A stretch of DNA of 64,000 nucleotides from assembly GCF_003864295.1 (NCBI RefSeq), contig NZ_BDQK01000001.1:790676-854675 (forward strand), in the 5' to 3' direction. A program made the translations under genes and the position numbers. Below are positions 13,285 through 48,716 of this stretch, one piece after another. This DNA comes from Aphanothece sacrum FPU1 (lineage in GTDB: Bacteria; Cyanobacteriota; Cyanobacteriia; Cyanobacteriales; Microcystaceae). The stretch's first letter is position 1; every line of letters starts with the position of its first letter. The notes under the pieces are model-generated. The model was given only the letters and a program-made list of their open reading frames with translations. It had not been told where the DNA came from and searched no databases.

Positions 13285-14115
13285 TTATCTCAAGTTTAAC
13301 TCCCTTCCCAGTTCTGGGATAACTTGATTTAATTTACCACTACGATAGCCTTCTAAGTCGAGGGTGACATACATAAAACCATAGCCTTGAAATTGGGCGA
13401 CTAATAGGGATAAATCGATATTAACCACAAATTCCTTAATAATTTCGGGGGGTAACTCAATTTTGGCCGTATCTTCTTGAGAACGTACCCTGAGATTTTG
13501 ATATCCTAATTGACGTAAGTAGATCTCGGCCCGTCCAACTCGTTGTAGTTTGGCCACCGTAATTTCTTCTCCATAGGGAAAACGGGAACTTAAACAAGGT
13601 TGGGCCGGTTTATTCCACCAGGGAAGTCCTAATTCTTGGGAGAGTTGACGTACTTCTACTTTACTCATACCCACTTCAGCTAATGGCGATCGCGCCCCTC
13701 TTTCTTTGGCGGCTTGAATGCCTGGCCGATAGTCTTGTAAGTCATCGGCATTGACCCCATCTACTACATAAGGATAACCTTTTTTTAGGGCTAAGGGTTT
13801 GAGGGTGTCGTGGAGTTCACTTTTGCAGAAGTAGCAACGGTTGACAGGGTTTGCTGTATAATTAGGGTTCTCCATTTCCTGGGTGATTACTAATTCATGG
13901 GGAATACCAATGGTCTGCGCTTGAATTTTGGCTTCTTCTAAGTCTTCCGGGAGTAAAGAGGGTGACACCGCAGTAATAGCTAAAGCGCGATCGCCTAAAG
14001 TATCATAGGCAATTTTAGCCACTAGGGTACTATCTATTCCCCCAGAATAGGCAATTAAGGCCCGTTCCATTTGGCTAAAAAGATTTTGTAATTGGGTTAG
14101 TTTAGATTCAAGCAT
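13285..14115 (-). CDS. larE: ATP-dependent sacrificial sulfur transferase LarE
   Basis: A 276-residue PP-loop protein. The ATP-binding motif AYSGGIDSTLVAK lies at residues 22-34. The cysteine pair of NRCYFCKSELHDTL is near residue 95, and QPCLSSRFPYGEEIT is near 182. LarE adenylates and thiolates the pyridinium carboxylate precursor of the nickel-pincer nucleotide cofactor, giving up its own cysteine sulfur (or using a cluster when more cysteines are present). The later-acting partner larC is in the same window, 33 kb away. No larB or larA was found. Its GTGACAT-rich surroundings show no clear operon partner. Confidence 0.9.
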   Translation of the reverse strand: MLESKLTQLQNLFSQMERALIAYSGGIDSTLVAKIAYDTLGDRALAITAVSPSLLPEDLEEAKIQAQTIGIPHELVITQEMENPNYTANPVNRCYFCKSELHDTLKPLALKKGYPYVVDGVNADDLQDYRPGIQAAKERGARSPLAEVGMSKVEVRQLSQELGLPWWNKPAQPCLSSRFPYGEEITVAKLQRVGRAEIYLRQLGYQNLRVRSQEDTAKIELPPEIIKEFVVNIDLSLLVAQFQGYGFMYVTLDLEGYRSGKLNQVIPELGRELNLR

Positions 14116-24189: not shown

Positions 24190-25167
24190 TTAGAGATTTA
24201 ATCCCCTGATCAAGTCCGTGACTTCTTTGTCACAGGGTTGAGCAGCGATCGCTCCTGGTTTGGTGGTAGTAAGTGCGCCTACTGCACTAGCATAGGTTAA
24301 GACTTCTTTAACCATTATCTCATCTTCTAAAACGCGATCGCCCATTAAACAACATTGATGGAGAAATCCGGCCACAAAACTATCTCCTGCTCCGGTTGTA
24401 TCTACAACGTTAACCGGAAAGGCTGGGATTTGTCCTTGATTTTCCCCTAGATAATAAGTACCGCCTTTTTCTCCTGCGGTGACTAATATTCCTGTAACAT
24501 TGGGAAATTTTTGGGCGATTTCTTTGGCATTTTCTGTCTTAAATAATTCTTGTGCTTCTTCTAGGGAACATTTGATAAAATCAACTTGGTGCAATACCTC
24601 TATTATTAGGGGTTCTGCTATCTCTAAATTGTCCCAGAAGACGGGTCGCCAGTTAATATCGACAAAAACTTTAACTTGATGCTTTTTGGCCAGTTCTATA
24701 GCTTGATAAATAGCTTTTTTACTTTTAGGATAAGCAAGTTCTAGGGTTCCTATGACTAAATATTTAGCATTAATAAAAAGAGACTCTGGTAGGTTTTGAG
24801 CTAATAATTTAGTATCAGCGAATTGAGCAGTATCAATATTACCGAAACCAGCAAAATGACGTTCACCAGTGAGGGAACGAGTTACATAAATTTGTCGAGT
24901 CGGTGCTGTAGGATGACGTTGAACTCCTGTTATAGTGACCCCAATTTCTTCTAAAAGAGAAACTAATTGATCTCCATAGTTATCGGAACCAATACATCCT
25001 ATAAATGCGGCTGGAGTTCCTAGTTTAATTAAAGCACAAGCCACGTTAGCAGGTGCGCCCCCTGGATAAGCTGTCCATGAGGTAACATCAATTAATTCTT
25101 TGCCTAATTGATCTGCTAGACAGTCAAAGAGAATTTCACCTAAACAGATTATTTCAGGATTAGTCAT
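24190..25167 (-). CDS. PfkB-family carbohydrate kinase, probable fructokinase
   Basis: A 325-residue ribokinase-fold enzyme. The N-terminal LGEILFDCLAD and TAYPGGAPANVACALIKLG contact the sugar. VFVDINWRPVFWD fits fructokinases. The C-terminal VDTTGAGDSFVAGFLHQC holds the anion hole and catalytic Asp. ATP-dependent phosphorylation of fructose to fructose 6-phosphate is the most likely reaction, consistent with nagB nearby, although other sugars cannot be excluded. Confidence 0.87.
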   Translation of the reverse strand: MTNPEIICLGEILFDCLADQLGKELIDVTSWTAYPGGAPANVACALIKLGTPAAFIGCIGSDNYGDQLVSLLEEIGVTITGVQRHPTAPTRQIYVTRSLTGERHFAGFGNIDTAQFADTKLLAQNLPESLFINAKYLVIGTLELAYPKSKKAIYQAIELAKKHQVKVFVDINWRPVFWDNLEIAEPLIIEVLHQVDFIKCSLEEAQELFKTENAKEIAQKFPNVTGILVTAGEKGGTYYLGENQGQIPAFPVNVVDTTGAGDSFVAGFLHQCCLMGDRVLEDEIMVKEVLTYASAVGALTTTKPGAIAAQPCDKEVTDLIRGLNL

Positions 25168-43912: not shown

Positions 43913-44818
43913 CTATAGCAATAATCCTAATCCTGCTGCTATCACTTCTGCTAAAATACTGATAATTCTAAAGATAGCAATAGGAGTTAAAATAATACCG
44001 ATAGGAATAGTAGATTGTTGCAGTAAAGCGATAATAGTTGCTTCAAATACACCGATTCCGCCAGGTGCGCCAGGAATAACTAAACCGAGTAACCAAGCAA
44101 AACTAAAGGCACTTAATAACACAGGAATTTGTTTAATTGATATTGACATAAATGCCATTAAAACTAAAATAAATCCTAATCCTCTTAATAATAAAAATAT
44201 AATTTCTCCTAATAAATAAATACTTGGATATTTGTCTATATGTAAAGGGTCGTTTTTCTTGTTTTTATTTCGTTTATTTTTTTGAGTAAAAGTAATTAAT
44301 TTATTAAAAAAAAATGGATGAATACTCAATAAAATAATCAATAAGCTGAAGATTTGTAGGGTTAACACATAAAAATTTGATGTAGTTTTAATTACCCCAA
44401 TAAAATGACTAGATAAAGCGATTAATAAAGCAGCACTAGCCATTAATAATGGTTCTAATAACACGCTTAAACTAGCAACAGCAAGAGAAGCACCTTTTTT
44501 AGATACGGCGGAAATACGCCCATAAAAATGACCCACATTACCTGGTAAATATTTAGCAATATTAGTGATTAAATATATCTTTAAAGCCCATAAAATACTC
44601 ACAGGTTGTTTAAATCCTTTGAGGATTAATAACCAGACAAAACCTGACCAAATATGAGCAATTAAAGTAATAATTAAAGCTAATGATAATAATGTCCATC
44701 CCTGAGAATCAAGGGTAACTGACGTAACAGTTTGCCAATTAGTTTTAACAGTTTTAGTAATAAAAAATAAAGTTAATCCTAGAATTATCCATCGTAAATA
44801 AGGTTTAATTAATGACAT
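43913..44818 (-). CDS. UPF0104 / lysylphosphatidylglycerol synthetase-like membrane protein
   Basis: A 301-residue integral membrane protein of about eight helices in the flippase-like (UPF0104, AglD/MprF N-terminal-like) family. WRIILGLTLFF-like first helix, then YLITNIAKYLPGNVGHFYGRI and VIPGAPGGIGVFEATIIALL are the conserved parts. The family is linked to lipid or polyprenyl-lipid transport or modification. The MprF catalytic domain is absent. It is upstream of the small membrane protein gene and follows the HepT/MntA pair in reading order. Confidence 0.8.
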   Translation of the reverse strand: MSLIKPYLRWIILGLTLFFITKTVKTNWQTVTSVTLDSQGWTLLSLALIITLIAHIWSGFVWLLILKGFKQPVSILWALKIYLITNIAKYLPGNVGHFYGRISAVSKKGASLAVASLSVLLEPLLMASAALLIALSSHFIGVIKTTSNFYVLTLQIFSLLIILLSIHPFFFNKLITFTQKNKRNKNKKNDPLHIDKYPSIYLLGEIIFLLLRGLGFILVLMAFMSISIKQIPVLLSAFSFAWLLGLVIPGAPGGIGVFEATIIALLQQSTIPIGIILTPIAIFRIISILAEVIAAGLGLLL

Positions 44819-44854: not shown

Positions 44855-45307
44855 TTATTTATATTGTTCAATAAAGGTAGCAAATGCTTGACATTCTAAG
44901 ATAATCTGAGATAATATAAATGGAGAATTATCTACTAGAGGATGAAGTTTTTCCGACTCAAATTCAAAAGCATAAATATTCCGCACTACATGACGTAATC
45001 CTCGATAATCTTCTAATATTTTACGGGTATTAAAAGAAATAACAGCCGGTCGTTTATGATCTATTTCTAGACTCATTTGTTCAAGTAGTTGTTGATGCAA
45101 ATTTGCTCTTTGTGGAACATGATTATCGATTTCTCTAGCAATTCGTTCTAAAAGTCGTTCTATTCCATTATAAAAATTATGCAAATTTAAGGCTACACTA
45201 TCTAAATAAAGCTGATCATCTGTTTGTTTAAATTTCTCCCAAGCTTGTAATGTTCGACTAATAGAACGCTCAATTGATAATAATTCATGTTTAATCTCGT
45301 TTGCCAG
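44855..45307 (-). CDS. hepT: HepT-like toxin (HEPN) with a non-ATG start
   Basis: The continuous frame from 45307 reads LANEIKHELLSIERSISR, TLQAWEKFKQTDDQLYLDS, VALNLHNFYNGIERLLERI, and so on for about 150 residues. It includes the active-site-like RHVVRNIYAF (R-x4-N-x-Y). This is the expected full length of a HepT-type HEPN ribonuclease. However, no ATG or GTG exists before the first TTG at 45184, which would cut off 41 conserved residues. CTG at 45307, right after the mntA stop, is the likeliest start by position. It is either an unusual start or a toxin whose start was lost by mutation. Confidence 0.65.
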   Translation of the reverse strand: MANEIKHELLSIERSISRTLQAWEKFKQTDDQLYLDSVALNLHNFYNGIERLLERIAREIDNHVPQRANLHQQLLEQMSLEIDHKRPAVISFNTRKILEDYRGLRHVVRNIYAFEFESEKLHPLVDNSPFILSQIILECQAFATFIEQYK

Positions 45308-45309
45308 TT

Positions 45310-45702
45310 TTAAGTATCTTTTGCTAAAATTTTTATTCCTTTTTTTTCAATGATTTCTCTCAGTTGAGTTTGACAAGTTTCTCCGTCTATTAAATCCACT
45401 TTAAACTCATCACTAATTCCTGTTACCATTCCCACTGCTTGATAAAATTGTTCAGCAGAAATACCCCAAACAGCTAAATCAATATCCGAGTAAGCATCAA
45501 ACCAATTAGGATCAGTTAAAGAACCAAAAATAATGACTTGTTTTGCTTGATATTTTGAACGTAATAAATCAGCTAAATTTTGGGCTAATTTCCAAGCTTT
45601 TTCCCTTCTTTGAGATAAGTCAAGATTAGGAGGCTCAGTTTTGTCATCAAGTTGATAATATTTCCATTCTTCAGGGGTTAATTCAAGGGCTGTTTTATTC
45701 AT
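45310..45702 (-). CDS. mntA: MntA-like minimal nucleotidyltransferase antitoxin
   Basis: A 130-residue MNT protein. The nucleotidyltransferase motif is VIIFGSLTDPNWFDAYSDIDLAVWG with G60-S61 and D73-x-D75, and a third Asp is in KVDLIDGE. MntA neutralises HepT by adding AMP units to a tyrosine of the toxin. The stop overlaps the beginning of the hepT frame, fitting the usual antitoxin-first pair. It is divergent from the FkbM gene. Confidence 0.85.
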   Translation of the reverse strand: MNKTALELTPEEWKYYQLDDKTEPPNLDLSQRREKAWKLAQNLADLLRSKYQAKQVIIFGSLTDPNWFDAYSDIDLAVWGISAEQFYQAVGMVTGISDEFKVDLIDGETCQTQLREIIEKKGIKILAKDT

Positions 45703-46755: not shown

Positions 46756-46830
46756 TTAGACATCTCCCCAAATTAACTTCAAACCATTATATTATAATGG
46801 TTTGAAGTTAGGTTTCTTGGAAATGTCTAA
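46756..46830. repeat. MITE-like long inverted repeat covering the larC stop
   Basis: A perfect 16-bp stem AACTTCAAACCATTAT with an ATT loop (46775-46809) is nested in imperfect outer arms TTAGACAT and ATGTCTAA (46756 and 46823). The right arm supplies the stop codon of the larC C-terminal frame (TAG, 46827-46829). This suggests insertion at the end of the gene, or a bidirectional terminator between convergent genes. Confidence 0.6.
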
Positions 46831-47306
46831 TGATTTTCAAACCAAGCATCTAAAGCCATTTTTTGAATCATCCTTAAGGGTTGATGAAACTGTCTGGCTA
46901 ATTCTGCACAATCTTCATATTCTGGTTGTACATTAATAATTATCTCATCTTGACTCGCTACCTTAACCCTAACTTTGCCATACTCTATCTCAACTTCTTG
47001 AATTTCTCGCTCTAAAATAGTTCTATTTTGTCTTAACTGACGAATCCCTAATGTTGTTGTTTCCTTAAAAATAATTTGTTCACAGTCAGACACTTTATCT
47101 AAAGGACAAATAACCGTCAATAAAATTCCAGGACGGGACTTTTTCATATTAATAGACTGAGTAAAAACATCTAAGGCCCCCACCTGAAATAAAGTCTCAA
47201 AAATATAGCCAATAACTTGAGGACTTAAATCATCAATTTGTGTCTCTAATACCGCAATAGTATCTACATTAGTGTTTTTTTTTCCTCCATACTTTCCCCA
47301 ATCCAA
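46827..47306 (-). CDS. larC: LarC C-terminal part, in the -1 frame
   Basis: The frame encodes the second half of Lar[41 protein letters not shown], then [15 protein letters not shown] and [22 protein letters not shown]. It is -1 relative to the upstream frame and overlaps it by 43 bp. An internal ATG at 47306 (MDWGKYGG) could also give this half alone. Fused through the slippery A9 run it would give a LarC of about 410 residues, the normal length. LarC inserts nickel into the pincer cofactor with CTP. No error evidence other than the homopolymer is visible. Confidence 0.85.
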
Positions 47307-48058
47307 AGACGTAAAATATTAGGAATAGATAACTCTTGTGAACCGGCCCCTAAACCCACTTTTTCTAACTTCATTTGAGGAGATTCACCAAAACTTAATG
47401 CTAGACTAATAGCGATCGCGGCCCCAGTCGGTGTCACTAATTCTTTGTCAATACCATTACTATAAATAGGTACTTGACGGGACTCCCATAACTTCATCAC
47501 TGCCGGAACAGGTACAGGTAAACGCCCATGGGCCGCCCAAACCGTCCCTCCACCCGTAGGCATCCCAGAACAGTATAACCCCTCAATATCCAACCAATCT
47601 AAGCCCAAACAAGTCCCCACAATGTCTACAATGGCATCTGTAGCCCCCACCTCATGAAAATGTACCTTGGACGGTGCAACCCCATGAACAGCCCCTTCTG
47701 CTATGGCTAATTGACGAAACACCTCTAGACTCCATTGAGTCGCCCTGGGGGGGAGTTTTGCTTGTTCAATCATCAATTCTATCTCAGGTAAATGACGAGC
47801 GGGCGGATGATGGCTATGATGGTGATGGGGAGACTCGTGTGTATGGGGAGTCGAGGTAACTAATTCTACATGAACCTTAGTAGCTAATTGTCCCTGACGG
47901 TGAACCTTTTCAGCCCAAAGACGGTATTCATCAGCTATTCCTAACCCCTGAAGTTGCTCAATTAAGTATTCTAAAGGAACACCGCTATCAACCAAGGCCC
48001 CTAAACACATATCTCCAGCAATACCCGTCGGACACTCTAAATAGGCTATTTTTTTCAT
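47264..48058 (-). CDS. larC: LarC N-terminal part (nickel insertion)
   Basis: A 264-residue frame starting [32 protein letters not shown], the standard LarC opening. A His-rich stretch near residues 72-86 ([18 protein letters not shown]) suits nickel handling. [15 protein letters not shown] and [22 protein letters not shown] follow. The frame stops at MEEKKTLM, shortly after an A9 run where the ribosome could slip -1 into the C-terminal frame. In other bacteria, LarC is known to be made by programmed frameshifting. It is divergent from the YciO gene with only 4 bp between starts. Confidence 0.88.
47275..47283 (-). other. larC: A9 slippery run in larC
   Basis: On the minus strand the reading frame is ATG GAG GAA AAA AAA ACA, containing a phased A-AAA-AAA heptamer (X XXY YYZ). 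A -1 slip yields AAC ACT AAT GTA and continues in the C-terminal frame. A sequence-length error or transcriptional slippage in the nine-base run would have the same effect. Confidence 0.7.
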
Positions 48059-48062
48059 AACA

Positions 48063-48716
48063 ATGGCTACTCTATATACACTTCATCCTTATAATCCTCA
48101 ACCTCGTCGTATTGAAGAAATTTGTCAATCCCTAAGACAAGGGGCGATTATGCTTTATCCTACTGATACAGTTTATGCGATCGGTTGCGATCTTAATAGC
48201 AAATCTGCCGTACAACGAGTCAGACAAATCAAGCAATTATCTAATGATAAACCCTTGACGTTCCTGTGTTCTTCTCTCTCAAATATTTCTGAATATGCTT
48301 CCGTTAGTGATAGCGCTTATCGTATTATGAAAAGGTTAATTCCTGGCCCCTATACCTTTGTTCTTCCTACTACCAAATTAGTGCCTAAATTGGTCATGAG
48401 TCCTAAACGGAAAACCACAGGTATTCGTGTTCCTGATCATCCCATTTGTCAGACCTTATTGCAAGGCTTAGGTAATCCTATTATTTCTACTTCTGCCCAT
48501 TTAGCAGACGAAACAGGAGGTTTTCCAACTATTGGGTTAGATAAATTTCTCTTATTTGACGAATTGGATAAACAGGTAGATTTAATTATTGATAATGAAT
48601 TAGAACCTGGGTTTGATGTCTCTACCATTGTAGATATGACCGGTGATACTCCTATGGTGATTCGTAAGGGGTTAGGATGGGAAGAATTACAAAATTGGGT
48701 AACTGTTACCGTTTAA
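48063..48716 (+). CDS. YciO/YrdC-family protein
   Basis: A 217-residue member of the Sua5/YciO/YrdC family. The strand [18 protein letters not shown], the segment [20 protein letters not shown], then [19 protein letters not shown] and [14 protein letters not shown] are all present. Sua5/TsaC makes threonylcarbamoyl-AMP for the t6A modification. YciO-branch proteins have weak or no such activity, and the [10 protein letters not shown] stretch (instead of K-R-P) favours YciO. It starts 5 bp after the divergent larC start. Confidence 0.8.

Follow-up and report, generated by a model that had tools for sequence, protein, structure and literature searches.

A conserved run of nine adenines at the frame junction of a split larC in Aphanothece sacrum and Crocosphaera, a predicted site of programmed recoding

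The larC gene of Aphanothece sacrum FPU1 is written in two overlapping reading frames that meet at a run of nine adenines (A9), and this run recurs, with the same codon phase and the same frame offset, in all nine split genes of one well-supported clade that unites A. sacrum with members of the Crocosphaera group. Both halves of the gene evolve under purifying selection. Given this pattern, we regard the run as a recoding site and consider it probable that larC is functional and relies on programmed recoding for its expression, with the slip taking place at the ribosome. The ribosomal slip, its efficiency, and the role of full-length LarC as the relevant product are what we infer from the comparisons set out below.

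larC is written in two overlapping frames

All coordinates are positions in the window, the 64-kb stretch of A. sacrum FPU1 DNA that was analysed, which belongs to a draft assembly of 20 contigs. The first larC frame starts at 48058 and stops at 47264, and a frame at −1 to it carries the remainder of the gene to 46827. The following features define the locus.

47264–48058, minus strand: N-terminal frame of larC (LarC1), 264 aa without a slip; TIGR00299 above cut-off; PF01969 positions 1–240
46827–47306, minus strand: C-terminal frame of larC (LarC2), −1 relative to the first frame; 159 aa from the first TTG; NF052512 above cut-off; PF01969 positions 237–374
47275–47283, minus strand: A9 run, the predicted slip site, identical in 9/9 split genes of the clade
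47276–47282, minus strand: heptamer A_AAA_AAA, in codon phase, single copy
47264–47266, minus strand: TAG stop that ends the N-terminal frame
47284–47288, minus strand: GGAGG directly 5′ of the A9 run, absent from the clade's eight remaining split genes

The N-terminal ORF ends with the minus-strand codons ATG GAG GAA AAA AAA ACA CTA ATG TAG. A first-pass annotation of this DNA had proposed that larC is split at an A9 run with a phased slippery heptamer, and the locus agrees with it, with exactly nine A's and the heptamer at the positions given above. The 43-bp overlap that it assigned to the −1 frame corresponds to the distance from the first TTG of the C-terminal frame to the TAG; from stop to stop the overlap is 55 bp, the LarC2 frame being open up to 47318 (163 aa stop to stop). 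It had also anticipated a LarC of about 410 residues after a −1 slip, and the product joined at A_AAA_AAA is indeed 410 aa long and aligns over its full length with the unsplit LarC proteins of relatives. Together, the two frames span PF01969, the nickel-insertion family, from end to end, and membership in the LarC family is indicated by both domain models (TIGR00299 and NF052512), which score above their cut-offs. Among solved structures, LarC 12bi is a single chain of 414 residues that matches both halves, and 6bwo is LarC2 alone; the split point of larC falls on the LarC1/LarC2 domain boundary. Because the gene is written in two overlapping frames, a full LarC requires a slip, either by the ribosome or by RNA polymerase.

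Upstream, a Sua5/YciO gene (48063–48716, PF01300) lies head to head with larC, with 4 nt between its start codon and that of larC at 48058. This divergent pairing occurs at 141 loci, some of them from the same genome, at distances from −24 nt (an overlap, in Microcystis) to 760 nt, and therefore the larC promoter may sit within the neighbouring gene. Elsewhere in the window, a HepT-like gene (44855–45184, minus strand, PF20797) stands beside a gene for a nucleotidyltransferase-domain protein (45310–45702, minus strand, PF18765), a pair that looks like a HEPN/MNT toxin-antitoxin system.

The run, its phase and the frame offset are conserved in one clade

The family to which A. sacrum belongs is represented by 50 genomes, its own included. 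The C-terminal part was matched in 45 of them, nine with a split gene and 36 with a gene in one frame. The nine split genes are that of the window, that of G007 and seven from the genus g14 (the Crocosphaera group), among them Crocosphaera watsonii WH 8501 (G017, on a 720-kb contig) and strain SU3 (G039). All nine carry exactly A9 with a G before and a C after it, in the same phase and with the same −1 offset, which is the alignment of close relatives that the first-pass annotation had called for. The Crocosphaera genome G040 stands outside the split/unsplit comparison, its contig ending before the junction. A tenth clade member, the Crocosphaera MAG MO_192.B18 (G043, g14), lacks two bases just 5′ of the run, and its larC is a single open frame of 489 codons; this gene is one of the 36 one-frame genes. 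Among named loci (80 kept of 295), seven are split, all of them in the Crocosphaera group, and 73 are in one frame. For G048, G013 and G210, larC was not found, though close relatives carry it.

In a LarC tree of 104 chosen rows (obtained by a quick search, with 28 of the 34 split Pseudanabaenaceae genes described below and with the frame-broken gene of G095 entered as unsplit), the nine split genes and the in-frame G043 form one clade with SH-aLRT support of 98, nested inside unsplit relatives. This arrangement bears on a test that the first-pass annotation had set for its own proposal, namely that it would be refuted by relatives whose larC is one unbroken frame lacking the A run. Taken literally, such relatives exist, 36 of the 45 family matches being in one frame, yet the proposal of recoding stands, because the split genes group together in a single clade with good support.

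Both halves are under selection and synonymous change is lowest at the junction

Over 36 pairs, the median pN/pS is 0.18 in the N-terminal part and 0.20 in the C-terminal part (median dS 0.63 and 0.69, respectively), indicating purifying selection on both. The 11-codon window at the junction shows 1.3% synonymous differences as against 30.3% overall and is the minimum of the 405 windows along the joined gene. Part of this stretch, the 8–14 nt 3′ of the run, is translated in both frames up to the stop, and this alone reduces synonymous change at the junction; the codons 5′ of the run are read in a single frame. The A's alone make a weaker argument, because 4 of 10 invariant lysine columns are always AAA.

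The run also stands out against its genome. Runs of nine A's or T's number three in the 64-kb window, which holds none longer. Over 400 kb of the same contig, ORFs of at least 150 codons contain five sense-strand A runs of nine or more, compared with 17.5 (s.d. 3.0) after synonymous shuffling, and no T runs, compared with 8.9. The corresponding count of A runs in C. watsonii is 20, compared with 35.8 after shuffling, and 13 of these 20 lie within one repeated gene family. Between genes, too, A or T runs of nine are few (3 within 90 kb of the A. sacrum contig), so their scarcity extends beyond coding sequence. Long A and T runs are thus avoided in this genome, and the larC A9 is nonetheless retained. 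With A9, phase and offset shared by 9/9 split genes, both halves under selection and the synonymous minimum at the site, the split reflects neither an error nor a dead gene, and on this comparative evidence we take the larC A9 to be a real, conserved recoding site. The same findings, together with the close relative that reads in frame, uphold the first-pass proposal of recoding at this position.

Two further runs were seen along the way. A second run of nine A's in the window (44306–44314, plus strand) is T9 in the sense of the ORF 43913–44818 (LPG_synthase_TM), which is a single open frame. On contig C323 of C. watsonii (G017:C323), IS-like ORFs of 534 nt (e.g., 24547–25080; four copies in 400 kb) have a sense A9 that lies 33 nt before the stop and is accompanied by a long open −1 frame, which is likely to be another A9 recoding site in this species.

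larC is split at the same boundary in other cyanobacterial lineages

In a survey of the class with PF01969, 376 of 388 genomes, taken from a larger group, had a match (among the matches listed). Frames were read in 54 re-searched genomes, 34 from Pseudanabaenaceae and 20 others, with single-match genomes left out and the larC halves located by a profile built from one sequence. The second group of split genes belongs to a family that we take to be Pseudanabaenaceae, because three of its members have plasmid contigs identical to those of Pseudanabaena galeata CCNP1313, Pseudanabaena sp. PCC 7367 and Synechococcus sp. PCC 7502. Of the 37 genomes of this family with larC (among the matches listed), 34 have the gene in two frames and three, all of genus g138, have it unsplit; the break falls on the same domain boundary as in the clade of the window. 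All 34 junctions were read: 27 have A9, four A10 and one A8, and the remaining two have A_AAA_AAG followed at once by a stop. The A8 gene has an offset of +1 instead of −1, so that within a single genus (g161) L091 (G357) combines A8 with +1 and L096 (G342) combines A9 with −1; the A8 of L091 is either an artefact of assembly or a site that operates through the loss of an A. G308 has an additional frame break upstream, and L080 (G347:C17:476200–478600) is accompanied by a second, LarC2-only copy about 7 kb away on the same contig.

Stable hairpins 3′ of the run were found in 14 of the 34 Pseudanabaenaceae genes, with z ranging from about −3 to −11. When six related stems were compared, with L101 as reference, two-sided changes that keep a pair were seen in L102 (two), L092 (one) and L077 (two); broken pairs were absent from L102 and present in L077 (three), L085 (one) and L103 (one), while L092 has one one-sided change. 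Directly 3′ of the A run, loci such as L090, L101 and L102 carry near-perfect palindromes of about 23–25 bp within the coding sequence. Such a palindrome with a T run on the opposite strand looks like an intrinsic terminator, and these elements could be stimulators, terminators or inserted repeats.

The 20 other genomes yielded a third split with A9, in G279 of another family (f34), whose sister beside it is unsplit. Overall, 41 of the 44 split genes carry A9–A10, and an uninterrupted run of exactly seven A's occurs in none. Among the same 20 genomes, larC is in one frame by way of a long linker in G066, G069, G072, G118 and G126; its halves lie on separate contigs in G144, G166, G227, G309, G360 and G418; G261 has the N-terminal half alone; and the gene is broken elsewhere in G108, G172, G274 and G325. 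Frame breaks with no run at all, near the junction in G095 and G299 and upstream of it in G429, look like errors or fresh mutations. We rejected a single origin for the splits in the clade of the window and in Pseudanabaenaceae, as unsplit genes separate the two in the LarC tree. The minimum number of changes between split and unsplit on this tree is five, a count that is blind to gain versus loss. LarC1/LarC2 recoding seems to have arisen more than once in cyanobacteria.

Slippage by the ribosome is favored over other explanations

Two readings do away with slippage altogether, and neither fares well. A sequencing error or a decaying gene might be suspected in a draft of 20 contigs, homopolymers being error-prone, and run-less frame breaks in larC do occur (G095, G299 and G429, above). 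An error was rejected nevertheless, as the identical run and offset recur in nine genomes, among them that of C. watsonii WH 8501, where larC lies on a 720-kb contig, and so was a pseudogene, given the purifying selection on the C-terminal part (pN/pS of 0.20) and the presence of larB and larE in the same genome; we give this reading hardly any credence. Scarcely better placed is the idea that LarC1 and LarC2 are two proteins, the second made by reinitiation, that act in a complex. The window does offer a TTG, placed 43 nt ahead of where the N-terminal stop ends, with GGAGG nearby, and the split coincides with a domain boundary. However, from 60 nt before the N-terminal stop to the conserved TQxDD motif, the C-terminal frame is devoid of ATG, GTG and TTG in 12 of the 44 split genes, and it contains an ATG in eight. 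As no start codon is conserved, reinitiation was rejected as a general route to LarC2, and a separate LarC2 made in this way is very unlikely. In addition, unsplit relatives make a single chain, and G043 has returned to, or kept, one frame.

This leaves slippage, for which we think the ribosome the probable agent. Ribosomes that do not slip would read GAA AAA AAA ACA CTA ATG TAG and release LarC1, the N-terminal domain, and a fraction of ribosomes would move one base back on A_AAA_AAA and continue with AAC ACT AAT GTA and onward. The shifted ribosomes would produce a 410-residue LarC1-LarC2, the nickel-inserting enzyme of nickel-pincer cofactor synthesis. For −1 frameshifting one would look for an in-phase X_XXY_YYZ heptamer within the frame overlap, which is present as A_AAA_AAA, and for a conserved site with lowered synonymous change, which is what the junction presents. 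Stimulators, which are common at such sites but not obligatory, were not detected in the clade of the window. A downstream hairpin was rejected, with z between −1.5 and +0.6 in 9/9 genes, and no Shine-Dalgarno-like element is common to the nine split genes; GGAGG was discarded as a conserved stimulator of this type, since it is confined to the window.

Alternatively, RNA polymerase might add one A, or drop two, at A9, such that part of the mRNA would encode full-length LarC for ordinary reading. Ribosomal and transcriptional slippage yield the same protein and are indistinguishable from sequence; we lean to the ribosome and regard slippage by the polymerase as possible, though less likely. Unbroken runs of at least nine A's or T's are the expected substrate of transcript slippage, and A9 is found in 9/9 genes of the clade. 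The predominance of A9–A10, with no pure run of seven, also fits the polymerase, because seven in phase suffice for the ribosome, and the clade of the window has neither structure nor shared stimulator. The avoidance of long A and T runs in its own genome points the same way, and avoidance at nine A's is described for many bacterial genomes, along with slippage at A9 in Thermus dnaX (PMC1088944). Moreover, heptamers without stimulators are reported to reach only about ten times the background of 0.055% in Escherichia coli (PMC4066793), which counts against the ribosome.

The polymerase meets its difficulties in Pseudanabaenaceae. Two genes of this family have A_AAA_AAG, a site too short for polymerase slippage under the usual rule. 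The hairpins 3′ of the run in 14/34 genes count against a slip by the polymerase as well, because it reaches the hairpin only after slipping. DUF111, which we take to be the old name of PF01969/LarC, is a family for which frameshifting has been tested. In an E. coli reporter, its cassettes shifted at rates of as much as 39% (Antonov et al. 2013, PMC3711429), and the same report gives shifts of 10, 40 and 63% for Mg-chelatase cassettes with 7, 9 and 11 A's. In the plastid atpB gene, A runs are described as recoded mostly by ribosomes, with no transcript slippage above a limit of ~5–15% (PMC8254509). Our preference for the ribosome rests on these four lines: the A_AAA_AAG sites and hairpins of Pseudanabaenaceae, the DUF111 result, the dependence of Mg-chelatase on the number of A's, and plastid atpB. 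These cyanobacterial sites offer a natural comparison of A-run recoding without and with a hairpin, and a close one-frame relative is at hand.

larC in the context of the nickel-pincer cofactor

Both larB and larE were found in the A. sacrum genome, the latter within the window.

13285–14115, minus strand: larE, ORF; TIGR00268 above cut-off at G000:C1:804002–804778

By contrast, larA is absent from A. sacrum and from all seven genomes checked (7/7). The presence of larB and larE without larA is consistent with the remark that many cyanobacteria make the nickel-pincer cofactor without LarA (PMC11796402), in which the LarC of Synechocystis is described as demonstrably active. For the joined LarC of A. 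sacrum, nickel insertion is a prediction. The first-pass annotation had supposed that the slip may control nickel-pincer synthesis, and such control would likewise be an inference. More tentatively, the LarC1/LarC2 boundary could be a recurrent target of recoding, at which A9–A10 would have been gained independently at least three times (in the Crocosphaera clade, in Pseudanabaenaceae and in one f34 species) because a separate His-rich LarC1, presumably a nickel handler, is useful beside LarC. The slip rate would then set the ratio, and the cofactor would serve an enzyme other than LarA; we consider this proposal conceivable rather than likely. Should LarC1 have a function by itself, this would provide a handle on what the nickel-pincer cofactor does in organisms that lack LarA.

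Comparison with known systems

In Lactobacillus plantarum, the LarC1 and LarC2 frames are reportedly joined by programmed frameshifting. L. plantarum has larA, which the seven genomes checked here lack. Closer at hand, the DUF111 cluster of PMC3711429 belongs to the same family and shares the two-ORF annotation, with programmed frameshifting reported. The main text of that paper gives neither the organisms nor the sites or shift directions tested, and describes no conservation across a Crocosphaera or Pseudanabaenaceae clade. In a limited search, we found no literature on larC/DUF111 recoding in these cyanobacteria, the family being covered by PMC3711429 alone. Recoding of this gene family is therefore already known; what is new here is its clade-wide conservation, the close relative in one frame, the recurrence at the domain boundary and the hairpin contrast. 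In practical terms, the suspicion of a pseudogene is lifted, and the two-gene annotation conceals a single enzyme throughout entire clades (nine genomes in the family of A. sacrum and 34/37 Pseudanabaenaceae with larC, among the matches listed).

Three further systems resemble larC in part. The chlD gene of Mg-chelatase (PMC9227772, PMC3711429) is, like larC, a metal-insertion gene, a single message of which yields both a short and a long product, as predicted for larC, and its cassettes of 2013 depended on the A run; the proteins are unrelated, however, and the short product of chlD is described as a known subunit, whereas the role of LarC1 alone is putative. Thermus dnaX shares the nine sense-strand A's, but its slip is reported to shorten the standard product (PMC1088944), whereas that of larC would lengthen it. 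Finally, plastid atpB (PMC8254509) resembles larC in that an A run is recoded by an expression machinery derived from cyanobacteria, the difference being that the recoding reported for atpB rescues a mutant allele, while the larC run is a conserved natural site.
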